Origin: a virus
DNA: 64,000 bases
Reading direction: 5' to 3' (one strand)
Virus record (IMG/VR): IMGVR_UViG_3300025771_000023
Span: 1 to 64,000 of that record
Positions 3,791 to 57,792 of this stretch are shown piece after piece. The stretch's first letter is position 1, and every line of letters starts with the position of its first letter. The position numbers and the translations under genes are program-made. A model generated the notes under the pieces. It saw only the letters and a program-made list of their open reading frames with translations, had not been told where the DNA came from and searched no databases.

Positions 3791-6010
3791 TTAGTTTGGA
3801 TAACCTTGCTGTTCTCCGGCAGCGTCCATTCTCTGTCTAGTGTCTGCTCTTTCTGCTTCCGTTCTTTCTCTTTTTCTTTTCTTTGGTTTAATCTGAACTT
3901 CTTGTGGTTGTTGGGGTTGAACTTCTTGTGGTTGTTGGGGTTGAACTTCTTGAGGTTGTTGTGCTTGTTGTGGTTGTTGTGCTTGTTGTGCTTGTTGAGG
4001 TTGTTGAGTTCTTGCAGATTTTTTAATTTGTTGCAAACGCTGCAAACTTCGCTGATGTTTTGATGATGCAGTATCATAATTACTTTGAGCTGTTGCCAAA
4101 GTATTCTGTGCTTGTTGTCTTATTTGATTGTTTGCTTGTGCAATAGGAGAAGTGGGATCCGTTGCAATATGAACCTCTACATTTTTTCTATGCTGCCTTA
4201 ATATTGGTTCTCCAGTTTCTGGATTTATGGGAATAGATGCATTTTGCGCATTTACACTTGCTACTTCTAGATCTCTTTCAGTATCAAAGAATGCTTGTTG
4301 TGTTTGTTGCGCCTTTCGTGCAGCATATCTTGCCCGTCTTTCTGCTGCCTGCCTCTCTATCCTTTCTTGTTTTACTGCCTCTCTTTCTGCTGCTAACCTT
4401 TCATCTCTTTCCCTACCAACTCCTTTTGATCTCAATTCGGCAGTTCTTGCTTGTCTATTAAACGTATCCAAGGTCATTGGTCCTTGTTGTGGTTGTGCTT
4501 GATTATCTGGTTTATCTGCATCAGGTTTTGCTGGCCCAACTCTTCCTGCTAAAGCACCAGATCTTTGTATCCTTTGTGGTTCTTCTCCTCTACGTCTCAT
4601 TTCAGATGCACGGTATCCATCCTCTGTTTTGCTACTTTTACCCTTTCCAGATCTAGGAGTAAGAGGTTGGTCCAGATCTGCCCTTTGAGATACTGGTTCA
4701 GATTTTGCTCTACTAACAACTTCACCCGTCTTAGGATCTACATAAGTTCCCCTAACAACTTCAGTTGCCTGCCCAGATGGGGAAGACTTAAGGAAATCTG
4801 AGAGAGATTTCATAGTTGGATACTTTGAAAGAATACCTTCAATTCGTTCTCTTTGTCCCTTTTTTAAATCACTTACATCAATTCTTTTTGTCAATAGTTT
4901 ATAAGCTTTTTCATATTCTTTTCTTTTTGGATCATCTCTATCCATACCCATATAATCTATCTTAAGTTGTTTTGGATTATTTTTATATTTTTTACTATCG
5001 GCAATTTTTTTAATTGCTCCAAGTTCACCTACTTCCAAATCTGACTTATCAATTTTATCATTTGGACTTCCTTTACCCCTCAAAAGTCTCATTGCAGTTA
5101 ATGCATCTTTAAATTCTTGACTTTCTGGATCTAACTGAGCAGAAACTTCTTTCCCGAATTTTTGTTCACCACCAGCAGCTTCTTTATCAACTAATCTATC
5201 AAATCCGGGATAATTTTTAACAAGAGCATCAACTGCAGATTGAGCAATTGATAATCTTTTCTCACTCTTTTCTTTATTTTCTGTTGGACTAATTTTTAAA
5301 TTCTGTGCTCTAACATATTTTGATATATTAGATTCTAAGTCTGCCTCAAATTTTTTAATTTCTTCCTTTGAGGCACCATCTTTTTTCAGTTTTTGAATAT
5401 ATTTTTTAGCAGCAGCTTTGAATAATCCTCTAACTTCTTCTGGTTCGGCAGATAGAGTTTGTGATCCTTCTCCCTGCTTTAAACTAATTCCTTGTCCAAA
5501 TTTTTTATCTTTTGTGTCTGCGATAGAAATATCTCTTTTTGATGTATCTGCTTCTTTTCCAACTACATCTTTCCACATTCTTGTAGTGGGTGGAGTTGCT
5601 CCACCTTCAACTTTAGCATAAGCAGTTGATCTATTAGCAGCAGATTTTCCTCTTCTTCCTTTTGTATATGCTACAACACTATCTGGTGCCAATTTCAATT
5701 CGTCATAGTATGTTGATTGACTTTGACTTGCATTAGTATCTTTTCCCTTTTCAAATCCCCGTTTTGCCTTTGCAAAACTTAATGGATGTTTAGGATCTTG
5801 TCTAGCAGCATCAATTTCTTTCTCCATTGCTTGTCTAGCATCATCATATTTTCCAGCATTAATAAGATCTCTTATTTCTCTGCCGTATTTTCTATGAGTA
5901 ATAAAGTGATTCCATACTTTTCTGAATGCATGTTCATCACTATATTTTCCCTCAAATAAAAGGAAACCATATCTATAACATTCAAATATAAAATCTCCGA
6001 AAGACTTCAT
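3791..6010 (-). CDS. Large charged protein with T4-type capsid-targeting N-terminus (candidate internal head protein)
   Basis: A 739-residue hydrophilic protein. It begins MKSFGDFIFE, which parallels the T4 capsid-targeting sequence MKTYQEFIAE of internal proteins, with the gp21-type cleavage pattern I-x-E at 8-10 and a second L-F-E at 18-20. Residues ~145-200 (RDISIADTKDKKFGQ, then GISLKQGEGSQ) resemble the D...SxK core of PD-(D/E)XK nucleases (D165, K178); this is tentative. The middle is lysine-rich and helical. The C-terminal third is low-complexity Q/A/R-rich, with 8-residue QPQQPQEV repeats encoded by near-identical 24-base units at about 3895-3960, and a basic tail. It stands between uvsY and uvsW with its own late promoter, as a packaged virion protein might. 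Function unproven. Confidence 0.8.
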   Translation of the reverse strand: MKSFGDFIFECYRYGFLLFEGKYSDEHAFRKVWNHFITHRKYGREIRDLINAGKYDDARQAMEKEIDAARQDPKHPLSFAKAKRGFEKGKDTNASQSQSTYYDELKLAPDSVVAYTKGRRGKSAANRSTAYAKVEGGATPPTTRMWKDVVGKEADTSKRDISIADTKDKKFGQGISLKQGEGSQTLSAEPEEVRGLFKAAAKKYIQKLKKDGASKEEIKKFEADLESNISKYVRAQNLKISPTENKEKSEKRLSIAQSAVDALVKNYPGFDRLVDKEAAGGEQKFGKEVSAQLDPESQEFKDALTAMRLLRGKGSPNDKIDKSDLEVGELGAIKKIADSKKYKNNPKQLKIDYMGMDRDDPKRKEYEKAYKLLTKRIDVSDLKKGQRERIEGILSKYPTMKSLSDFLKSSPSGQATEVVRGTYVDPKTGEVVSRAKSEPVSQRADLDQPLTPRSGKGKSSKTEDGYRASEMRRRGEEPQRIQRSGALAGRVGPAKPDADKPDNQAQPQQGPMTLDTFNRQARTAELRSKGVGRERDERLAAEREAVKQERIERQAAERRARYAARKAQQTQQAFFDTERDLEVASVNAQNASIPINPETGEPILRQHRKNVEVHIATDPTSPIAQANNQIRQQAQNTLATAQSNYDTASSKHQRSLQRLQQIKKSARTQQPQQAQQAQQPQQAQQPQEVQPQQPQEVQPQQPQEVQIKPKKRKRERTEAERADTRQRMDAAGEQQGYPN

Positions 6011-50811: not shown

Positions 50812-51569
50812 TAGATTACGCGAGTCTTTTCGTGCCCCACACGAACACGAGGATCACACCAAATCTCAAATCCTGCTTCAATGGCATCCAAACAGAAGGA
50901 TACATCCTCTCCACACATATCTTGAACCTCTCCAGACTCAAATACCTGCATCTTCGGAGCAAACCATGGATACTTCATACCCTCATTCTCAAAGACTCCG
51001 TGCTTGATGAGTAACCACCCAAATCCTGTATAATCAACAGTAAAAGGTTTGCGCCTCTTGGAGATGCTCTCGATGGTTTCGTGATTCATCACACCTCCAT
51101 TGTTACGGAAGTCATCCTCCTCCAACCAATGAGCAACTGATGTTGTGCGACCATCTTCGGTACAATACCAACCAGCGGCAATGTCCTTATCCATTAATAC
51201 TAACTGATAAAACTTCTCAGTATTAAAAACAATATCACTATCAATCCATAACTGATAATCATATTTTAACTTACCGTCCCAGGGAATTTGATTCGGTCCG
51301 CGCAGTACATTAGCTCCAAGACACTTGCACCTTGCAAAGTTGACCATGGAGGAGTAGTCCTGCGAGATCTGAATGCTTGCCCCGCACTGTACAAGATCAA
51401 AACAAAGTTGTACAAAACTCTTCAAATACGTATAAGATACTCCGCGCCCTGGAAGACAAAAAACAATACTCTTTCCTCGAAGCATCTCTTTTGCCTTGTC
51501 ATAGTCCCATTCTTGCTCTTGTTTCGCCACTGTAGGAGCGGCTGCTTTTACTGTAAATCCTTTAGCCAT
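50811..51569 (-). CDS. GT-A-fold glycosyltransferase-like protein
   Basis: A 252-residue soluble protein. It has a GT-A nucleotide-sugar layout: KSIVFCLPGRGVSYTYLKSF near residue 33, variable middle, LWIDSDIVF with the metal-binding D110-x-D112, YTGFGWLLIKHGVFE, and a C-terminal GEDVSFCLDAIEAGFEIWCDPRVRVGHEK (E221/D222, H246). It could modify phage DNA bases, virion proteins or host surface sugar. It is led by a near-perfect sigma70-type promoter, so early expression is likely, which favours a host- or DNA-directed role over a structural one. Substrate cannot be read from sequence. Confidence 0.82.
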   Translation of the reverse strand: MAKGFTVKAAAPTVAKQEQEWDYDKAKEMLRGKSIVFCLPGRGVSYTYLKSFVQLCFDLVQCGASIQISQDYSSMVNFARCKCLGANVLRGPNQIPWDGKLKYDYQLWIDSDIVFNTEKFYQLVLMDKDIAAGWYCTEDGRTTSVAHWLEEDDFRNNGGVMNHETIESISKRRKPFTVDYTGFGWLLIKHGVFENEGMKYPWFAPKMQVFESGEVQDMCGEDVSFCLDAIEAGFEIWCDPRVRVGHEKTRVI

Positions 51570-51591
51570 AATAGAATTGAATTACTTTCGA

Positions 51592-51620
51592 ATCATACTG
51601 CATTATGTATACTCTGTCAA
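51592..51620 (-). promoter_or_regulatory. Consensus sigma70-type promoter before the glycosyltransferase
   Basis: TTGACA (51615-51620) and TATGAT (51592-51597) on the minus strand with exactly 17 bases between. The ATG is 23 bases after the -10 box, giving a leader of about 16 bases. It overlaps the stop of the upstream gene. Confidence 0.75.
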
Positions 51621-51799
51621 GAATCTGTAATATCAGTAATGATAATACAGTCATTCTCAACTTCAATATTAACTTCGGTTCCTTCATACCACCCCTTTTC
51701 ATCACATATCCATTCGGGAATCTTTAAAAAATACTCCCCACTTACTGGATCAATCTCTATAGTCGTAAAATTTTCTGCGCGATTTTTTTGCATCTCCAT
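51617..51799 (-). CDS. AbrB/MazE-like small DNA-binding protein
   Basis: A 60-residue protein with the swapped-hairpin pattern: FTTIEIDPVSGEYFLKIPEWICDEKGWYEGTEVNIEVENDCIIITDI, where GEYFLKIPEW...GW..GTEVNIEV resembles AbrB/SpoVT/MazE antitoxin-fold domains (G-x-x-x-I-P at the first turn, G-x-x-V-x-I later). No toxin partner is next to it. It could be a regulator of early genes; repeats lie directly upstream on its 5' side. Confidence 0.72.
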   Translation of the reverse strand: MEMQKNRAENFTTIEIDPVSGEYFLKIPEWICDEKGWYEGTEVNIEVENDCIIITDITDS

Positions 51800-51837
51800 T
51801 AAACCTAGTTGTTGTTTTTATATAGCAAAAAAATTTT

Positions 51838-51957
51838 TTATGTGCCTTTGAAATCTTAGAGGATTTTGTGTTGTGGAATTTTGTGTTTCTTTGAGATCTT
51901 GGAGAATTTTGTGTTCCTTTGAGATCTTAGAGAATTTTGTGTTCCTTTGAGATCTTA
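51838..51957. repeat. 28-base tandem repeats, about four copies
   Basis: Units GAGAATTTTGTGTTCCTTTG + AGATCTTA at 51902-51929 and 51930-51957 are identical. A third at 51874-51901 differs in four bases, and a weaker one precedes it. Each contains AGATCT. The array lies in the 260-base gene-free gap before the AbrB-like gene and after the GC-rich island. Confidence 0.85.
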
Positions 51958-52008
51958 GACGACATCGTAACACTTTGTAGACTCTGGGGACCCATGGATT
52001 TTAATATA

Positions 52009-52028
52009 CGGGGGGGCGAACCCCCCCG
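52009..52028 (-). terminator. G7/C7 hairpin with UUCG loop after the 148-residue gene
   Basis: On the minus strand seven G, TTCG, seven C (extended by one CG pair) form a very stable stem 30 bases after the stop at 52060. There is no clear T tract, so it may be a terminator or an RNA-stabilising end. Confidence 0.55.
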
Positions 52029-52059
52029 GACTGCTGTAACGAACGAATGAGACTGCTGA

Positions 52060-52506
52060 TCAGGCAGCAAAGGTCTCAGGATATTGGCGGGCGATCCGCA
52101 GCACCTGCTGATCGATCTCCCACTCAGTGTCGCCGGGGCAGGAACGATCCAGGACGCGGAAGCGGGAAAACTTCTGCCCAATGGAATCGGCAGAATGCCC
52201 GGACTCGGGGAATGCTGCCATGAAAGCAGAGACGACGGCATCGCGGTCGCCTTCGGTTGCAAGGTAGCGGTCGGCGATGAAAGCAGTCTGCTCTTCAGAG
52301 TAGGGCACTCGCTTAGAGGGCACCGCCATGGCAGCGGCAAGAGCGGCGTCCATGAGTTGCCGCCCCTTCTTAAAGAGCAGGCGCTCGGGGCGGTCCAGAT
52401 TGGTCAGACCATACCCGGCAACATAGGCGGCGTTCTGCTGATAGAACTCCAGAGCGTTGCGGTCGGAAGCGGTCAGGGTTGAGGTCATGAGTCGGTTTGG
52501 GTTCAT
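52060..52506 (-). CDS. Hypothetical protein at the right-hand end of the island, 148 residues
   Basis: A GC-rich gene with an Ala/Arg/Asp/Gln-rich product: LTASDRNALEFYQQNAAYVAGYG, LLFKKGRQLMDAALAAAMAVPSKRVPYSEEQTAFIADRYL, then HSADSIGQKFSRFRVLDRSC and a helical tail. The later segment EEQTAFIADRYLAT...DRDAVVSAFMAAFPESGHSADSIGQKFSRFR looks like a helix-turn-helix or SANT/Myb-type DNA-binding unit (three helices, final helix HSADSIGQKFSRFR). The start may be the ATG at 52488 instead. Base and codon use differ from the core genes. DNA binding is inference. Confidence 0.72.
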   Translation of the reverse strand: MNPNRLMTSTLTASDRNALEFYQQNAAYVAGYGLTNLDRPERLLFKKGRQLMDAALAAAMAVPSKRVPYSEEQTAFIADRYLATEGDRDAVVSAFMAAFPESGHSADSIGQKFSRFRVLDRSCPGDTEWEIDQQVLRIARQYPETFAA

Positions 52507-52530
52507 TTGACTTGAGAGAATTCTACAGGG

Positions 52531-52755
52531 TCACCATACATATCGGGGACCGATAGCGTGACAGTTCACCCATTGTCCCTTTGAGGTGTCGCCGCTGAAC
52601 CAAAGCATCTTCAGAATGGCGCGGCGTGAGACGTGGGTGTGACGGTGCTCAGTCAGAGGGGTGTTAAACCAGCGGACCCGTGCCGTTCCCGTGATAGGGT
52701 TCAAGCGGAGGGTCCAAACGCTCTGAGAGTCGCTGCAGTCGATTGGATAGCGCAT
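52531..52755 (-). CDS. Hypothetical protein, 74 residues
   Basis: A beta-rich start (SVWTLRLNPITGTARVRWFN) is followed by a basic HRHTHVSRRAILKMLWF segment. No cysteine pairs. A -10-like TAGGAT stands 23 bases before the ATG, so it has its own promoter. It is GC-rich like its neighbours. Not recognised; a small DNA-binding fold with a strand pair and a basic helix is possible. Confidence 0.6.
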   Translation of the reverse strand: MRYPIDCSDSQSVWTLRLNPITGTARVRWFNTPLTEHRHTHVSRRAILKMLWFSGDTSKGQWVNCHAIGPRYVW

Positions 52756-52777
52756 CGGGTTTCCGTTTGGTCCCCCT

Positions 52778-52783
52778 ATCCTA
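52778..52783 (-). promoter_or_regulatory. -10-like box before the 74-residue gene at 52531
   Basis: TAGGAT on the minus strand, 23 bases before the ATG, in the gap after the small gene at 52834. Its spacing matches other -10-like boxes of the island. Confidence 0.35.
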
Positions 52784-52833
52784 TCAAATCAGGTGCCCCC
52801 TGCAACCCCTCTCAGGCAAGTCTCATGAGTCTC

Positions 52834-52935
52834 TCAGAACTCAATCGGTGTCGTGGTGATAGCATCCAACACGGAGAGCAGTCGCTCACCATTCTCTGCT
52901 TGAGACAGGAGTGCAATCATGAGACCAACGGACAT
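52834..52935 (-). CDS. Possible tiny protein, 33 residues
   Basis: MSVGLMIALLSQAENGERLL followed by SVLDAITTTPIEF, an ordered helical peptide. The pattern ALLSQAxNGERLLxVLDxI resembles very small cyanophage proteins I have seen between such genes. No clear ribosome site is visible upstream, so it is only a candidate. Confidence 0.4.
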   Translation of the reverse strand: MSVGLMIALLSQAENGERLLSVLDAITTTPIEF

Positions 52936-52976
52936 GAGAAAAATGTTAATGAAGGACAGTGAGTTAATGTTAGTTG

Positions 52977-52997
52977 GGGGGAGAATGTGTCTCCCCC
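52977..52997 (-). terminator. Hairpin after the KTSC-like gene
   Basis: On the minus strand GGGGGAGA / TCTCCCCC form an 8-base-pair stem with a 5-base loop, 13 bases after the stop at 53010. No T tract follows, as in the other island hairpins. Confidence 0.6.
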
Positions 52998-53009
52998 TGA
53001 CTGATACTA

Positions 53010-53234
53010 TCAGGCAGCAACCTTGATAGTTTCCAGATCCTTATTGCGGATGCTGGTGTTCACAAAACGACCGACAGATTCCTCTGCCTTGATAACGTTA
53101 TTCAGTTCATTCACGAAACCGCTAACATCAGCGGACTTGTAGTCGTATTGGCGACCACCGTTGAATTCGATGGTGACGGTATCACCTTCGGTAGCGATGG
53201 AGTTGATAGCGGAAGAAGTGAAGTTGGAGATCAT
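53010..53234 (-). CDS. KTSC-like domain protein
   Basis: A 74-residue protein: SSAINSIATEGDTVTIEFNG, GRQYDYKSADVSGFVNELNN, then VIKAEESVGRFVNTSIRN. This follows the KTSC domain layout: S-[ST]-x-I at the start, TVEF.xGxxYxY, a helix, and ESVGRFVNxxIR. KTSC domains are small, of uncertain biochemical role, and sometimes sit beside nucleases or lysyl-tRNA synthetase. It is preceded by a stem-loop and has no other partner here. Identification moderate. Confidence 0.75.
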   Translation of the reverse strand: MISNFTSSAINSIATEGDTVTIEFNGGRQYDYKSADVSGFVNELNNVIKAEESVGRFVNTSIRNKDLETIKVAA

Positions 53235-53303
53235 GTTGATAATAAAGCGATGGAATGTGATGTGTTTTGAGCGGGATGCATCACCCCCGCTGAGGTTATT
53301 AGA

Positions 53304-53325
53304 GAGGGGAAGTTTCCCACCCCTC
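53304..53325 (-). terminator. Hairpin after the 119-residue gene
   Basis: Minus-strand GAGGGG / CCCCTC arms flank TGGGAAACTT, 10 bases after the stop at 53336, another intergenic hairpin without a T tract. Confidence 0.5.
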
Positions 53326-53335
53326 AGTGATAACG

Positions 53336-53695
53336 TCAGGCAAGCAGAAGGTCGTTGGAAAGTGTGCCCAGTTTCATAGAGTTACGAAACTCAGTGACAA
53401 AGAACTCAGTGCCATTGTAGAGACGAATGAACCAATCGAAGTTCTTCTGAAAGACATGTTCTCCTGCGATTGCGTGCTCTGAGAGAATCGCATTCAGACG
53501 CGATTTGGTGGTGGTTGATTGATGCCCACCGTCCCAAAGGCGGACGCCAAAGTCACCGACTTCTGCAATCTTACCACCGTGGAGATACACTGTGGAAATG
53601 TTAGTTTCAGGGTCGAAAGTAACAGCAGTGTTGCCAGATTGCCAGTTGATGCTGTTAGAAATGGCGGCGTTCATTTCCTGTTCGATCTTACGCAT
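53336..53695 (-). CDS. Conserved small cyanophage protein, 119 residues
   Basis: A soluble protein with a beta-sheet feel: NAAISNSINWQSGNTAVTFDPETNISTVYLHGGKIAEVGDFGVRLWDGGHQSTTTKSRLNAILSEHAI and WFIRLYNGTEFFVTEFRN. The core WQSGNTAVxxDxExxxSTVYLHGxKIAEVGD is one I associate with small cyanophage proteins of unknown role. A TATAGT -10-like box is 27 bases upstream of the ATG. Contains no catalytic residue pattern known to me. Confidence 0.78.
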   Translation of the reverse strand: MRKIEQEMNAAISNSINWQSGNTAVTFDPETNISTVYLHGGKIAEVGDFGVRLWDGGHQSTTTKSRLNAILSEHAIAGEHVFQKNFDWFIRLYNGTEFFVTEFRNSMKLGTLSNDLLLA

Positions 53696-53721
53696 TTGGT
53701 GTCGTTTGTGTGACTGAAGTC

Positions 53722-53727
53722 ACTATA
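53722..53727 (-). promoter_or_regulatory. -10-like box before the 119-residue gene
   Basis: TATAGT on the minus strand, 27 bases before the ATG at 53695, preceded by a CCCCCAAACCCC stretch shared with other island promoters. Confidence 0.45.
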
Positions 53728-53759
53728 GAACGGATGGGAGGGGTTTGGGGGAAATGGTG

Positions 53760-53777
53760 GACAGTCCCCCGACTGTC
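53760..53777 (-). terminator. Hairpin after the 94-residue gene
   Basis: Perfect 7-base-pair stem GACAGTC / GACTGTC with a GGGG loop on the minus strand, one base past the stop at 53779. Confidence 0.65.
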
Positions 53778-53778
53778 A

Positions 53779-54063
53779 TCAACCGATCTGTTCGTGACCT
53801 CCATTGACTGCGGATTGTTCCCACACATGGTAGAACATATCCCATGCCCACTTATCAGCAACAAAGGTAGAAATGTCTGCCTGTTCGCATACCCAATCGT
53901 ATGCCATATCGCAGTCGGCGTCCATCTCTCCCACGAAATCATAGAGACCTTCGATTGCACTCCGGAATGCAGGATTCTCAACAGCAGACACAAACCACTT
54001 GCCAGTTTCATCATCTTTGATGATGTGATTGCCCTGCAGAGAGTGAGTGGCAGTGAAAGACAT
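53779..54063 (-). CDS. Hypothetical acidic protein, 94 residues
   Basis: The product is acidic and aromatic: SFTATHSLQGNHIIKDDETGKWFVSAVENPAFRSAIEGLYDFVGEMDADCDMAYDWVCEQADI and FVADKWAWDMFYHVWEQSAV. Two or three helices are likely, with no membrane segment. Acidic, tryptophan-rich small phage proteins are often host-protein inhibitors or DNA mimics, but nothing specific shows this. A TATATT box stands 28 bases before the ATG. GC-rich like its neighbours. Confidence 0.7.
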   Translation of the reverse strand: MSFTATHSLQGNHIIKDDETGKWFVSAVENPAFRSAIEGLYDFVGEMDADCDMAYDWVCEQADISTFVADKWAWDMFYHVWEQSAVNGGHEQIG

Positions 54064-54090
54064 TTGGGTTGAACTCCCGACGACTTATGT

Positions 54091-54096
54091 AATATA
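54091..54096 (-). promoter_or_regulatory. -10-like box before the 94-residue gene
   Basis: TATATT preceded by GGTG (extended -10 like) on the minus strand, 28 bases before the ATG at 54063. Confidence 0.45.
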
Positions 54097-54153
54097 CACC
54101 AGATCGGTGCCTTGTGGGGGTTTGGTGGACAGTTGCCCAACTGGTCGGGCAGC

Positions 54154-54180
54154 CGCCCAGTTTGTGTTAGAAACTGGGCG
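54154..54180 (-). terminator. Perfect 10-base-pair hairpin after the 82-residue gene
   Basis: CGCCCAGTTT / AAACTGGGCG with a 7-base loop CTAACAC on the minus strand, 13 bases past the stop at 54193. It belongs to the intergenic hairpin family of the island. Confidence 0.65.
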
Positions 54181-54192
54181 ACACAGTTAGTA

Positions 54193-54441
54193 TTACTCAG
54201 GCATCAAATCATTCAGGATTTCCTCATCATAAAGGTCCACAATCTCTGCCTTAAGTTGTTGCTCACTGATGTCATCAAAGTTGCTAACCAACAGATCAAA
54301 TGCCAGTTGACACAAATCGTCCAGGTCCATGCCGTCAACAATCATGTTGGCATAGTTCTCTTTCAGTTGCTGAAGTTTCTCTGAGTTCATGGTGGTGTCA
54401 GTCATGGTGTTTGTGTGATCGAAGGTGGAAAGGAATGCCAT
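54193..54441 (-). CDS. Acidic helical protein, related to the gene at 59021
   Basis: An 82-residue acidic protein: NSEKLQQLKENYANMIVDGMDLDDLCQLAFDLLVSNFDDI and QLKAEIVDLYDEEIL. The protein at 59021-59248 has the same layout (LQFFKENYASVLVDEMEEDAIIEYAILKIAEEM...YDSIVEVYDKE), so they are distant paralogues. The first ATG overlaps the stop of the upstream gene (TGATG); the true start may be the ATG at 54405 (MTDTTMNSEKL). Function unknown; three helices with a conserved KENYAxxxVDxM at the front. Confidence 0.75.
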   Translation of the reverse strand: MAFLSTFDHTNTMTDTTMNSEKLQQLKENYANMIVDGMDLDDLCQLAFDLLVSNFDDISEQQLKAEIVDLYDEEILNDLMPE

Positions 54442-54578
54442 CAGTAATCGATGTTGGAGTTGATGTAATCTTCTACGTTGAACTTGTTATCATCTTTCTC
54501 CCATTCTTCCTTGTAGTCGATGACATCGAAGATCTCACCGGAAGCATCTTGAATCTCAGACCAGAGTTCATCAAACAT
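54441..54578 (-). CDS. Small acidic protein, 45 residues
   Basis: MFDELWSEIQDASGEIFDVI then DYKEEWEKDDNKFNVEDYIN and a SNIDY end, strongly acidic. Its stop overlaps the next ATG (TGATG) and it starts just after the stop at 54584, so it is the middle of a small operon. No known family. Confidence 0.65.
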   Translation of the reverse strand: MFDELWSEIQDASGEIFDVIDYKEEWEKDDNKFNVEDYINSNIDY

Positions 54579-54583
54579 GTGAA

Positions 54584-54754
54584 TCAAATGCAGATAGAGT
54601 AGCAAGCGACAGAAGAGGGAATGCCAGATAAACTCAGTTTGTAGTTCATCTCTTCAGCGTAATCATACGCATCCTCGGCATCATAAAAGGGTCCAATGTA
54701 TTGAGGTTCGCTTAACTCATCAGAGTCAAACTTGACCATAACATTGAGAAACAT
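54584..54754 (-). CDS. Small hypothetical protein, 56 residues
   Basis: From the ATG at 54754: MFLNVMVKFDSDELSEPQYI, then GPFYDAEDAYDYAEEMNYKL and a short tail. The layout of one strand, a YIGPF turn and a helix rich in D/E and Y is a common tiny phage fold. A TATATT box is 26 bases before this ATG, which is why I start here; the reading frame stays open upstream to a TTG. First gene of the 54193-54754 operon. Confidence 0.68.
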   Translation of the reverse strand: MFLNVMVKFDSDELSEPQYIGPFYDAEDAYDYAEEMNYKLSLSGIPSSVACYSICI

Positions 54755-54779
54755 GGGGTTGATCCCTGAGGACTTGATC

Positions 54780-54785
54780 AATATA
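54780..54785 (-). promoter_or_regulatory. -10-like box before the 56-residue gene
   Basis: TATATT with GGTG before it, 26 bases from the ATG at 54754 on the minus strand; same spacing as the other island promoters. Confidence 0.45.
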
Positions 54786-54842
54786 CACCGGATCGGGTCC
54801 CGGTGCCGGATTAGTGGACAGTTGGTGGATCGTCCACTCGCG

Positions 54843-54895
54843 GCCGCCGATTCTCAATAGTGGATGTATATTGAGAACCGGAACGGTTAGTGTTA
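54843..54895 (-). repeat. 53-base intergenic hairpin repeat, copy 1
   Basis: Identical over 53 bases to copy 2 at 55478-55530. On the minus strand CCGGTTCTCAAT pairs with ATTGAGAATCGG around an 11-base loop, with one G-U pair. It lies between a gene stop (54908) and the next promoter (54780). No T tract follows. Confidence 0.85.
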
Positions 54896-54907
54896 GAAAC
54901 TAACACA

Positions 54908-55090
54908 TCAATAACCTAACCAAACTAGAAACTCACCAGCATCCACTCCCATGCTCCAATCCTGTTGGATTCCATACTCTTTCACAAAGTCATCCAAAAC
55001 ATAATGATTGCGGGAAACTGCCTCAGCGACAGCATACGAAATGCAACCATTCTGATCAGCAGTGTCAAGCAAAATTTCAGAGAAAGTCAT
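54908..55090 (-). CDS. Small hypothetical protein, 60 residues
   Basis: Product: MTFSEILLDTADQNGCISYA then VAEAVSRNHYVLDDFVKEYG and a C-terminal part with SMGVDAGEFLVWLGY. It forms three short helices and a hydrophobic end. No signal peptide. Its stop is followed by the copy-1 hairpin repeat, so it ends an operon with the gene at 55133. Unknown function. Confidence 0.7.
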   Translation of the reverse strand: MTFSEILLDTADQNGCISYAVAEAVSRNHYVLDDFVKEYGIQQDWSMGVDAGEFLVWLGY

Positions 55091-55132
55091 TTTTTAAAGT
55101 GTGAATGTGCAGAGGTTAGTGTTACTAAATTA

Positions 55133-55390
55133 TCACAACTCCCACAGCATTTCATTCATCTCATCAGCATCAATTGCAGGGTCATTCCATGCAACGTCGT
55201 CGCCAGTTTTTTCAAGATAGCGACCTACTTGCCCGTGCATCATACAGCGGACAAACTTATCCCAAGGCGTCTCTAATCCTTCGCGGAAAGTCACACATGC
55301 TTTCGCAGTGTTGTAGAGAAATCGATCATTTTGAATCCAAAGGGCAGCATTCCAGGTTTCCCAGTTTGCCCATCCGTTGTAACCTTCCAT
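55133..55390 (-). CDS. Conserved phage protein with GWANWETW motif (DUF7249-type)
   Basis: An 85-residue protein: GYNGWANWETWNAALWIQND, then RFLYNTAKACVTFREGLETPWDKFVRCMMHG and a helical acidic end. The pattern YxGWANWETWNxALWIQND...YNTAKACVxxREG..PWxKFV is found in small proteins of many phages and plasmids, of unknown function (DUF7249-type). A TATTGT box 25 bases before the ATG is the likely -10. The family recognition is good, the function is not known. Confidence 0.82.
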   Translation of the reverse strand: MEGYNGWANWETWNAALWIQNDRFLYNTAKACVTFREGLETPWDKFVRCMMHGQVGRYLEKTGDDVAWNDPAIDADEMNEMLWEL

Positions 55391-55414
55391 TGTCGAATTC
55401 CTGAGGACTTAGAT

Positions 55415-55420
55415 ACAATA
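55415..55420 (-). promoter_or_regulatory. -10-like box before the GWANWETW gene
   Basis: TATTGT on the minus strand, 25 bases before the ATG at 55390. Just downstream the GTCCTCAGG leader resembles that of the gene at 54754. Confidence 0.35.
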
Positions 55421-55477
55421 AACGATTTTGGACCCTGTGCCCATTTTGTGTGCCACTTAGGTGATCGTCCACCGGCA

Positions 55478-55530
55478 GCCGCCGATTCTCAATAGTGGAT
55501 GTATATTGAGAACCGGAACGGTTAGTGTTA
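55478..55530 (-). repeat. 53-base intergenic hairpin repeat, copy 2
   Basis: Same 53 bases as copy 1. It follows the stop of the gene at 55531 directly and precedes the promoter at 55415. Confidence 0.85.
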
Positions 55531-55725
55531 CTAACAGAGACTACTCAGGTTAACATGAACCTCCTCAACTTTGTCCCATGCATCATCAGGAAGGTCACCA
55601 CATTGTGCTTCCATAAAGTCACAAACCATCTCCCAATCTGCATCAAACATTTCAACAAACAATGGCAAAGATTCCAGAGCAGAGTTGAACAAATCTTCTT
55701 GAGTTTGAGTCATTTTGATCATCAT
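55531..55725 (-). CDS. Small acidic protein, 64 residues
   Basis: Acidic and helical: MTQTQEDLFNSALESLPLFVEMFDADWEMVCDFMEAQCGDLPDDAW and KVEEVHVNLSSL. The ATG at 55713 (MTQTQ) is as likely a start as the one at 55725. It shares an operon with the gene at 55730, whose stop is four bases from its start. Strong negative charge and aromatic residues; no known family. Confidence 0.7.
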   Translation of the reverse strand: MMIKMTQTQEDLFNSALESLPLFVEMFDADWEMVCDFMEAQCGDLPDDAWDKVEEVHVNLSSLC

Positions 55726-55729
55726 GGTT

Positions 55730-56029
55730 TCAGTTAGTGATGAGATCGAGGTTCAGATTGTTAACACAATTCACACCAGCGTAATACGCATCCAGGAAGT
55801 TATCGAAAACCTCAATAGTTTCAGTCACTGAATGGCGAGGATTGACCTCTGTACGAATAGCAACTGCGAACACATCCACAGTACCATCATCAGTGTACTT
55901 TGCAGAGTGAGTGAGAATCACATTGTCGTTTTCCTTGAAACGATAAACCGAACGGGTCGGAAGGTGATGAGCAGTCAATTCACTGCCAAAGTAAACTTCT
56001 GCTTTCCAACCTTGAGAGAAGAGAGACAT
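55730..56029 (-). CDS. Hypothetical protein, about 99 residues
   Basis: From the ATG at 56029: MSLFSQGWKAEVYFGSELTAH, then RSVYRFKENDNVILTHSAKYTDDGTVDVFAVAIRTEVNPR and a last helix AYYAGVNCVNNLNLDLITN. Frames remain open upstream to 56137, but a CATATT -10-like box at 56057-56062 lies 28 bases before 56029 and makes the earlier starts unlikely. Beta-rich core; soluble; unknown function. Confidence 0.65.
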   Translation of the reverse strand: MSLFSQGWKAEVYFGSELTAHHLPTRSVYRFKENDNVILTHSAKYTDDGTVDVFAVAIRTEVNPRHSVTETIEVFDNFLDAYYAGVNCVNNLNLDLITN

Positions 56030-56056
56030 TTGAGAGGCGTTTTTTTCCATGCACCT

Positions 56057-56062
56057 AATATG
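56057..56062 (-). promoter_or_regulatory. -10-like box before the 99-residue gene
   Basis: CATATT on the minus strand 28 bases before the ATG at 56029, preceded by a CCCCAAACCCCCCGATTC stretch seen at other island promoters. Confidence 0.4.
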
Positions 56063-56171
56063 GCACAGAATCGGGGGGTTTGGGGCGAATAGTGGACACT
56101 TGCCCAACTGGTCGGGCGGCTGCCTAGTTTCTAACACTAACCGTGCGTTTAGTTAGTGATACTTTGCGGCG

Positions 56172-56221
56172 GCCGCCGATTCTCAATAAGAGATGTATAT
56201 TGAGAATCGGTACGGTTACTA
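56172..56221 (-). repeat. Intergenic hairpin repeat, diverged copy 3
   Basis: Minus strand CCGATTCTCAAT pairs perfectly with ATTGAGAATCGG. Where copies 1 and 2 have a G-U pair this copy has A-U, so the stem is kept though the bases differ. It directly follows the stop at 56229. Confidence 0.8.
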
Positions 56222-56228
56222 TAAAGAA

Positions 56229-56549
56229 TCAGAGCGCACCATTCTCATTAACTTTGCCCCACACCAGTTGGTTACCATAAACACCCGCATAGTATGCACC
56301 AAAACTCACACCCATGCGCTCATCATTGTTGTCACAATTGCGGGTAAGATTCAGACCAAAGTAGAACTTGTCGCCAATCTGATGAGGTGTGGAAAACTTA
56401 ACACGGCGCAGTTGTTGATATGCTGCTCCGATAATCACCGCGCAGATTGCACCAATGGTCATCAAATTAATCCAGAGTTGTTGATAATCAAACTCCATCA
56501 CATCATCGACGAAGTTGATAGTTTGTGCGGAGAAAGTGCTGAAGTTCAT
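56229..56549 (-). CDS. Small membrane-anchored protein, 106 residues
   Basis: Soluble N-terminus (NFSTFSAQTINFVDDVMEFD) followed by a hydrophobic segment around residues 25-46 (LWINLMTIGAICAVIIGAAY), then a polar C-terminal domain (RVKFSTPHQIGDKFYFGLNL, and AYYAGVYGNQLVWGKVNE). One membrane helix is likely, with the C-terminal part facing one side. Its stop is followed by hairpin repeat copy 3. A role at the host membrane is inference from topology. Confidence 0.72.
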   Translation of the reverse strand: MNFSTFSAQTINFVDDVMEFDYQQLWINLMTIGAICAVIIGAAYQQLRRVKFSTPHQIGDKFYFGLNLTRNCDNNDERMGVSFGAYYAGVYGNQLVWGKVNENGAL

Positions 56550-56648
56550 TGTTAGAAATTGTGAACGATTTGTGGGAGAAAAATGTGCCTTTCCTCAACC
56601 ACGAACTAACAATAACCCATCACCGGGGAAAATGGGGAAAATAGTGTG

Positions 56649-56712
56649 CAGTTCCCAGATTGGCACAATCTCATGAGTCTCTCTTCAAGATCATGTGCCA
56701 ATCTGGGAACTG
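56649..56712. repeat. 19-base perfect inverted repeat
   Basis: CAGTTCCCAGATTGGCACA (56649-56667) and its exact reverse complement (56694-56712) flank a 26-base loop, just past the stop at 56718. As RNA it forms a long stem, a strong terminator-like or processing structure without a T tract. The loop contains TCTCATGAGTCTCTC, also present near 52820-52837. Confidence 0.9.
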
Positions 56713-56717
56713 GAAGT

Positions 56718-56906
56718 TTAAAAGATGTCTGAGTAATCCTTGATGCTAACATCAACATGCTCATCACCTTCGAGATCTAGAATATCATTCCAGTCTAGAT
56801 CTTCGGGGCGAAAGTCATCATAACACTCAACGTCGAGAGTAATGCGTACGTGGCGCTTTGTGTGCATGAGCATGTATCTAGATGCGATGTTTGCGTATTC
56901 TATCAT
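56718..56906 (-). CDS. Small acidic protein with beta/helix layout, 62 residues
   Basis: Product: KRHVRITLDVECYDDFRPED, LDWNDILDLEGDEHVDVSIK, then DYSDIF. The core RxTLDVxxYxxFxPExLDWxDIxDLE..VxVSIKxYxDI is a known pattern of tiny cyanophage proteins of unknown role. The start may be at an ATG two to fourteen codons downstream. It is the first gene leftward of the iteron-like repeats, whose sites lie 50-280 bases before its start, so they could act as its operators. Confidence 0.68.
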   Translation of the reverse strand: MIEYANIASRYMLMHTKRHVRITLDVECYDDFRPEDLDWNDILDLEGDEHVDVSIKDYSDIF

Positions 56907-56958
56907 GCATAATGCCTGTATGCAAGCTCGTTGTAATCATATGTATCTCGTGCATAAT

Positions 56959-57188
56959 CCTCGTCGAGATCATATGTATCTTGCATATTATATGATGAGT
57001 GTACGCCCATCTCGTCGAGATCATATGTATGATCTTGTGCCTGAGTATAGTCGAGATCGTAATCGTCGTAGAACATGAGAGTCTCGTCGAGATGTGTGTT
57101 TACTTTATAAGTATATGATGATCTCGTCGAGATGTCAAGTGTGAGTCTCGTCGAGATCCATAACCATTATTTATAAGTCTCGTCGAGA
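56959..57188. repeat. Iteron-like array of TCTCGTCGAGA palindromes
   Basis: Five perfect copies of the 11-base near-palindrome TCTCGTCGAGA at 57010, 57082, 57122, 57146 and 57178, a one-mismatch copy at 56959 and a half site near 57050. The sequence CATATGTAT follows several copies or lies between them. Copy spacings are 72, 40, 24 and 32 bases. This is a clustered-binding-site pattern. Confidence 0.92.
57168..57175 (-). promoter_or_regulatory. Orphan late-promoter-like TATAAATA in the iteron array
   Basis: Perfect TATAAATA on the minus strand between two palindromes. The nearest minus-strand gene starts 262 bases further on, so it may prime replication or drive a leader RNA, or be chance. 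Confidence 0.3.
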
Positions 57189-57199
57189 AAATGTGTAGG

Positions 57200-57525
57200 T
57201 CTCATGATTTTTCGCGGCGCGGCACTTGACAAACTGCGCGTCTTATGATACGCTCGCTAAACTTGCATCAGGGAGGGACCTTTTCATAAGATATAAAGCA
57301 TAAGATCTGGTGGTTTCAGAAGGTTTTAATGAGGTTTATAAAGCATAAGAATGAGGTGCTTTATGAGAGGTTTATGAGGTTCTTTATGAGTATTAAAAGA
57401 TACTTTTCCACAGGATAATAGAGGTTTTCCACACTATTATAATACTTTTCCACAGGGTTGTGGAAAACGAAACAAAACACTAAAACATATTTAAAATATC
57501 TTTTTAAATATAAAATTAACCAAAT
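57200..57525. other. Candidate replication origin: four DnaA boxes and AT-rich tract
   Basis: No gene is seen in 56,907-57,525. TTTTCCACA, the cyanobacterial DnaA-box form, occurs perfectly at 57404-57412, 57425-57433 and 57446-57454, and inverted at 57459-57467, so four in 64 bases. Left of these are short direct and inverted repeats of ATAAAGCATAAG / CTTTATG type at 57280-57390, and right of them an AT-rich tract (57470-57535) that could melt. The palindrome array lies immediately left. A GC-rich stretch with TTGACA at 57226-57231 separates the two blocks. Iterons, DnaA boxes and an AT-rich region together are the usual theta-origin layout. Inference from motifs only. Confidence 0.6.
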
Positions 57526-57792
57526 TTACCTCTTTTTAACGTATTCCAGGTCTTTCCAATCCTCTGGATACACTACAACCAAACATCTTTCATTCCGATG
57601 AAACGTTGCATCATTGAAACTCTCTTCACTCTTCTCTCTTACCATAATCTCAAGAGTTAGATACTGTTTATGTTTATCAACAAAGTATATCCAACCCTCC
57701 ATATGTTTGTGCTTTACATAATGATCTACTTGTGGCGCGTAGTGCTGATCTTGATCAATGTGAGGAACTTGTTCCGGTGGTACATAAGTCAT
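57526..57792 (-). CDS. Hypothetical protein beside the origin-like region, 88 residues
   Basis: Product: PPEQVPHIDQDQHYAPQVDH, YVKHKHMEGWIYFVDKHKQY, LTLEIMVREKSEESFNDATF, then a charged end. Histidine-, tyrosine- and charge-rich with a central beta pair. Its ATG overlaps the stop of the upstream gene (ATGA). It is the last gene of the 58.9-57.5 kb chain and ends at the AT-rich tract. No known family; an origin-binding role would fit position but nothing in the sequence shows it. Confidence 0.7.
   Translation of the reverse strand: MTYVPPEQVPHIDQDQHYAPQVDHYVKHKHMEGWIYFVDKHKQYLTLEIMVREKSEESFNDATFHRNERCLVVVYPEDWKDLEYVKKR

Follow-up and report, generated by a model that had tools for sequence, protein, structure and literature searches.

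A candidate replication origin with phased host-type DnaA boxes in T4-like cyanophages

Introduction

The locus described here raises the question of whether a T4-like cyanophage may start its replication at a site that is partly built from binding sites for DnaA, the initiator of its host. Cyanomyoviruses are among the commonest marine viruses, and we know of no use of host DnaA by T4 itself. A search of the open literature retrieved no earlier paper describing DnaA boxes in a cyanophage of the T4 type.

Results

The DNA originates from IMG/VR record IMGVR_UViG_3300025771_000023, a contig of 71,933 bp, of which positions 1-64,000 form the window, i.e. the whole 64,000-nt stretch that was analysed. 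Its major head, portal, sheath and terminase proteins match the corresponding PHROGs, which is in line with the earlier assignment to a T4-like cyanomyovirus, and the phages closest to it at this locus are Synechococcus phages of the Kyanoviridae type. All genes around the site lie on the minus strand, without a strand switch there. From left to right, small conserved minus-strand genes are followed by a promoter (P-) with palindromes on both sides, a second promoter (P+), repeats, DnaA boxes and an AT-rich stretch:

56718..56906, minus strand: small acidic gene, PHROG 12516 (no assigned function), adjoining the site in many cyanomyoviruses
56903..57076, minus strand: small acidic ORF of 57 aa with the C-terminus ELAYRHYA, homologues in S-SKS1, S-T4 and S-SRM01
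57010..57020, unstranded: palindrome 1, TCTCGTCGAGA, inside the 57-aa ORF
57082..57092, unstranded: palindrome 2, lying between P- and the start codon (ATG) of the 57-aa ORF
57110..57138, minus strand: sigma70-like promoter P-, TTGACA-17-TATACT, 11/12 matches, divergent, palindrome in its spacer
57122..57132, unstranded: palindrome 3, in the P- spacer
57146..57156, unstranded: palindrome 4, immediately upstream of the P- -35 element
57178..57188, unstranded: palindrome 5, between P- and P+
57226..57254, plus strand: putative sigma70-like promoter P+, TTGACA-17-TACGCT, recurring in 34 loci, with a weak -10 element in the window
57292..57390, plus strand: imperfect repeats (45-bp x2 and 12-bp x3.4) between P+ and the boxes
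57404..57412, plus strand: DnaA box 1, TTTTCCACA, 21-bp phase to box 2
57425..57433, plus strand: DnaA box 2, TTTTCCACA, 21-bp phase to box 3
57446..57454, plus strand: DnaA box 3, TTTTCCACA, perfect match
57459..57467, minus strand: DnaA box 4, inverted TTTTCCACA, present as a degenerate inverted copy in S-SM2, S-SKS1 and S-SCSM1
57479..57540, unstranded: AT-rich low-stability stretch of the ATTTAAAA..TTTTTAAAT type, a candidate DNA unwinding element that also occurs in box-less relatives

Analysis of the boxes revealed four perfect copies of TTTTCCACA within 57404-57467, as the earlier note had stated; two of them had been described as inverted to each other, but three are direct repeats at steps of exactly 21 bp, and a single box has the opposite orientation. 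Since shuffled sequences lead one to expect 1.8 copies per 64 kb, four within 64 bp lie far beyond chance, and the cluster thus has what is expected of an oriC-type site, namely at least three consensus boxes grouped more closely than chance allows. The boxes are also not scattered evenly: outside the cluster, the 71,933-bp contig has TTWTCCACA at just two positions, 56388 (minus) and 71293 (minus). The sequence, previously described as the Synechococcus-type form, is indeed the oriC box of cyanobacteria for which there is experimental support (PMC4674748, PMC3480399).

Directly adjoining the boxes is the AT-rich stretch of the earlier note, and its 40-bp segment starting at 57479 is the third least stable in 72 kb, exceeded at two other places; by sequence stability, the candidate unwinding element is therefore positioned as in an oriC. 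What the earlier note had overlooked is P+, which reads into the boxes and opposite to every neighbouring gene, on a strand that holds no gene downstream. A consensus promoter scan did not list P+, whose -10 element (TACGCT) is weak, and its assignment as a probable promoter in the window is based on conservation. With P+ upstream of, and reading into, the AT-rich low-stability element, the locus also has the arrangement of a T4-type origin. In S-SKS1, a perfect tandem array (22-bp x4.7) occupies the same place between promoter and boxes as the imperfect repeats of the window. No terminator was detected in the locus, including at the inverted boxes, which were accordingly dismissed as a terminator.

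The 600 bases that had been taken as free of genes are so for the most part, except that 56936-57076 overlaps the 57-aa ORF and that the AT-rich stretch ends within an ORF at 57526-57792 (minus). The S-SKS1 homologue of the 57-aa ORF is already annotated, and those of S-T4 and S-SRM01 are recognisable. This ORF (56903-57076, minus) features YDLDE repeats, which are partly encoded by the palindrome copies within it, and the C-terminus YARDTYDYNELAYRHYA; homologous ORFs elsewhere are also short. A search for a Rep initiator among the small proteins flanking the site yielded no Pfam match and only PHROG matches without assigned function. Positions 56649-56712 hold a 28-nt inverted repeat (hairpin) with TTGGCACA/TGTGCCAA, and a similar intergenic hairpin, GTGCCA...TGGCAC, is present in S-SKS1 (L002, ~4930-5025). 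The region 51000-57000 is a block of small genes with a GC content of ~0.44-0.52 compared to ~0.35 for the genome, possibly the result of recent acquisition.

The five perfect TCTCGTCGAGA near-palindromes of the earlier note were found (57010, 57082, 57122, 57146 and 57178), together with a one-mismatch copy at 56959; counting both strands and allowing one mismatch, 11 matches were observed versus 0.5 expected from shuffles. Their description as iteron-like proved less convincing. S-SM2 and S-SCSM1 carry boxes without palindromes upstream, and many palindrome clusters lack boxes, so that iterons essential to an origin were discarded as an explanation. Evenly spaced direct repeats, as iterons would be, are seen as a perfect array in S-SKS1 and as an imperfect counterpart in the window; the palindromes themselves are irregularly spaced. 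In 38 of 344 unique contexts among the matches listed, the spacer of a sigma70-like promoter holds the palindrome at a near-fixed offset, which suggests a phage operator with its regulator. Because of these spacer positions and the missing upstream copies in S-SM2 and S-SCSM1, an operator role fits the palindromes better than an iteron role. Arrays of the ATCTCGTCGAGAT palindrome are common in viral contigs (loci L124-L241, among the matches listed).

We considered 16 complete isolate genomes selected without regard to boxes, with a cluster defined as a TTWTCCACA pair within 50 bp. Such a pair is present in six of them (S-SKS1, S-SM2, DSL-LC03, Syn9, S-PM2 and P-TIM68), whereas random placement predicts 0.15 genomes of 16 and gave at most two in 5,000 draws. 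The clusters of S-PM2, DSL-LC03, Syn9 and P-TIM68 have a different promoter context; that of Syn9 is one inverted pair at 52565-52597, and an AT-rich stretch follows the clusters of S-PM2 and the first of DSL-LC03. The two clusters of DSL-LC03 (OR003938; 80123-80156 and 80507-80579) lie ~400 bp apart, one followed by AT-rich sequence and the other comprising five boxes. Direct boxes in phages show spacing peaks at 11-12 and 20-22 bp with a phase coherence of 0.83 (p ~3e-8 if shared ancestry is ignored). Cyanobacterial chromosomes likewise have most direct boxes 11-12 and 20-22 bp apart (coherence 0.85), and the phage boxes are thus helically phased in the chromosomal manner.

On the host side, DnaA domain IV was detected in 11 of 11 picocyanobacterial genomes, so that an initiator would probably be available in the host of this virus; a phage-encoded DnaA was dismissed, as domain IV was found in 0 of 9 phage records. 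Close box pairs are few among 37 picocyanobacterial genomes (direct in 9/37, inverted in 1/37). In one host genome, G286, thrC and dnaN flank a cluster of four boxes, of which three are perfect TTTTCCACA and one is TTATCCACA. Among the picocyanobacterial oriC regions beside dnaN (G286, G175, G237 and G282, corresponding to L486, L485, L475 and L476), one-mismatch boxes only are frequent (L475, L476 and L485). The one-mismatch boxes of G175 are spaced about like the perfect boxes of G286, as if box strength had decayed in some strains.

A search for the pattern TTGACW-16/18-TANNNT followed by at least two direct boxes within 320 bp retrieved 34 loci, including the isolates S-SKS1, S-SM2 and S-SCSM1, with none in a reversed-box control. 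Promoter, boxes and AT-rich element stand in the same order in all 34, which are not independent because several are closely related to the window. The cluster is indeed conserved in relatives: in S-SKS1 the same promoter precedes TTTTCCACA, TTATCCACA and TTATCCACA, spaced 21 bp from one to the next; S-SM2 has a pair of boxes at a distance of 21 bp, an inverted TTGTGGAGAA and then ATTTAAAAAACCTTTTTTAA; and S-SCSM1 has the boxes TTCTCCACA and TTTTCCACA. When loci were selected by the palindrome only, a promoter was located upstream on the same strand in 11 of 17 box clusters, compared with 0-1 of 17 for the downstream side. Not all viral box clusters are arranged in this way: among viral stretches selected by boxes only, unrelated viruses included, a promoter points into the boxes in 16 of 111 (a modest enrichment) and divergent promoters occur in 33 of 111.

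The same promoter and AT-rich element occur without boxes in S-SRM01, Bellamy and SynMITS9220M01, and S-T4, judged by eye, is similar to these; with boxes missing from this position in several relatives, DnaA cannot be required universally. The box position is taken by a TTCTCAAYAA / TTATTGAGAA motif in S-T4 (L001, 3100-3140), Bellamy (L246, upstream of gene 103) and S-SRM01 (L003, 5555-5590), which may bind another protein.

Cumulative GC skew gave no support for an origin at the clusters: it is monotonic in six complete relatives, Syn9 among them, without a turning point at the clusters, and may simply track gene orientation. Neither a strand switch nor a change of skew thus marks the site, where genes run one way. 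Several T4 origins (oriE, oriF and oriG) lie near such a switch or change, which is a tendency and not a requirement. G-rich skew of the R-loop type between promoter and boxes is strong in the window (+0.47) and averages -0.01 over the 34 loci; it was therefore abandoned as a general signature. The predicted P+ transcript, which would start near 57261 (plus), folds modestly better than shuffles (z = -2.5), and a search of its region matched no Rfam family at gathering score; a structured RNA was set aside on these two results.

Discussion

The earlier reading of the locus as an origin gained from the clustering, the conservation, the oriC form of the boxes and their phasing; GC skew and the iteron role assigned to the palindromes did not speak for it. 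What links the site to T4-type origins is P+, the promoter directed into the boxes; in oriF and oriG, a promoter is joined to a downstream A+T element (PMC3016281). Cyanomyoviruses lack motA, and their early genes are thought to be transcribed by unmodified host polymerase, which the sigma70-like P+ fits (PMC2984593). Taken together, the T4 origin plan and early transcription without motA point to a T4-type origin to which DnaA boxes would have been added in many lineages. On balance, we favour the interpretation that the locus is probably a replication origin of T4-like cyanophages, composed of a promoter and an AT-rich unwinding element with phased host-type DnaA boxes added. More tentatively, we propose a hybrid origin in which a T4-style promoter and unwinding element are assisted by host DnaA, an arrangement that might have been gained and lost repeatedly across the family.

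From this anatomy we infer how the site would operate. Host RNA polymerase, unmodified early in infection, would start at P+ and read across repeats and boxes into the AT-rich stretch. Host DnaA molecules, lined up on one side of the double helix, would assist in melting this stretch or in keeping it melted. Priming of the phage replisome would then fall to the transcript or to phage primase, with helicase loading of the gp41/gp59 type, and the palindromes would serve as operators through which a phage regulator adjusts P- and P+, the two divergent promoters.

The same boxes could also be there to titrate DnaA, in a datA-like manner, so that the host chromosome stops initiating, with the phage itself replicating by T4-type transcription and recombination without DnaA. 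Because several host oriC regions hold one-mismatch boxes only, perfect phage boxes could outcompete them, and the scarcity of close box pairs in picocyanobacteria as well as the persistence of promoter and AT-rich element in box-less relatives would agree with such a role. We nevertheless consider it unlikely, as a pure sink has no need of a fixed order with promoter and unwinding element, and three to five boxes are few, even though phage copy number rises later. Rather improbable, in our view, is that the locus controls early genes and is no origin, in which case DnaA would regulate the divergent promoters as a transcription factor, or obstruct them as a roadblock, and the palindromes would be operators. 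The near-consensus P- with a palindrome in its spacer, the recurrence of this placement in other promoter spacers and the frequency of divergent promoters beside viral box clusters all suit this explanation; however, promoters and boxes are separated by 150-300 bp, with the boxes on the far side beside a highly unstable stretch, no gene follows P+ on its strand, and the AT-rich element is conserved even where boxes are missing.

A non-coding RNA gene, with P+ driving a structured early RNA in which the inverted boxes form a stem-loop, appears very improbable. Boxes 3 and 4 would indeed give a 9-bp stem in a transcript that folds somewhat better than shuffles, but the region yielded neither an Rfam family at gathering score nor a terminator, the direct boxes share the phasing of DnaA boxes in chromosomes, and several loci have no inverted box, which breaks the stem there. 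We thus retain the interpretation as a probable T4-type origin with added DnaA boxes. If correct, a T4-type replication system uses host DnaA, which would be unexpected, and phage replication with such a hybrid origin could be tied to the cell-cycle initiator of the host; this could couple infection to the cell cycle of the host or account for the shut-off of host replication. Candidate origin coordinates are now at hand in the cultured phages S-SKS1, S-SM2 and S-SCSM1, and the box clusters of the cultured S-PM2, Syn9, P-TIM68 and DSL-LC03 are likewise exact candidate sites. The candidate positions are 58.06 kb in S-SM2 (GU071095), 151.4 kb in S-SKS1 (HQ633071), 52.57 kb in Syn9 (DQ149023) and 19.24 kb in S-PM2 (AJ630128).

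Comparison with known systems

Syn9 is also a cyanomyovirus and has an inverted box pair, although its GC skew has no turning point; a single theta origin was predicted for this phage, as cited in PMC2984593. T4 oriE combines an early promoter with 12-nt repeats (PMC3016281), and the phage site resembles it in its early-type promoter and short direct repeats, most clearly the S-SKS1 array. It differs in the sequence and length of the repeats and in the DnaA boxes, none of which are described for oriE (PMC3016281). As in T4 oriF and oriG, a promoter in non-coding DNA reads into an AT-rich element of low stability (PMC3016281). In these R-loop-primed T4 origins the promoter is MotA-dependent, whereas that of the window is host sigma70-like, and phased host-type DnaA boxes are inserted between promoter and AT-rich element.

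Repeats, DnaA boxes and an AT-rich stretch occur together in iteron plasmid and P1-type origins. The phage site combines the same three components and differs in that its palindromes behave more like operators and that no Rep initiator gene was recognised beside it. Compared to the cyanobacterial oriC of Synechococcus elongatus PCC 7942, Anabaena PCC 7120 and Cyanothece 51142, the site lies away from dnaN, has an outward promoter and fewer boxes than that of PCC 7942, and belongs to a lytic phage with a T4-type system, yet it shares with them both the TTTTCCACA box and the 11/21-bp phasing.
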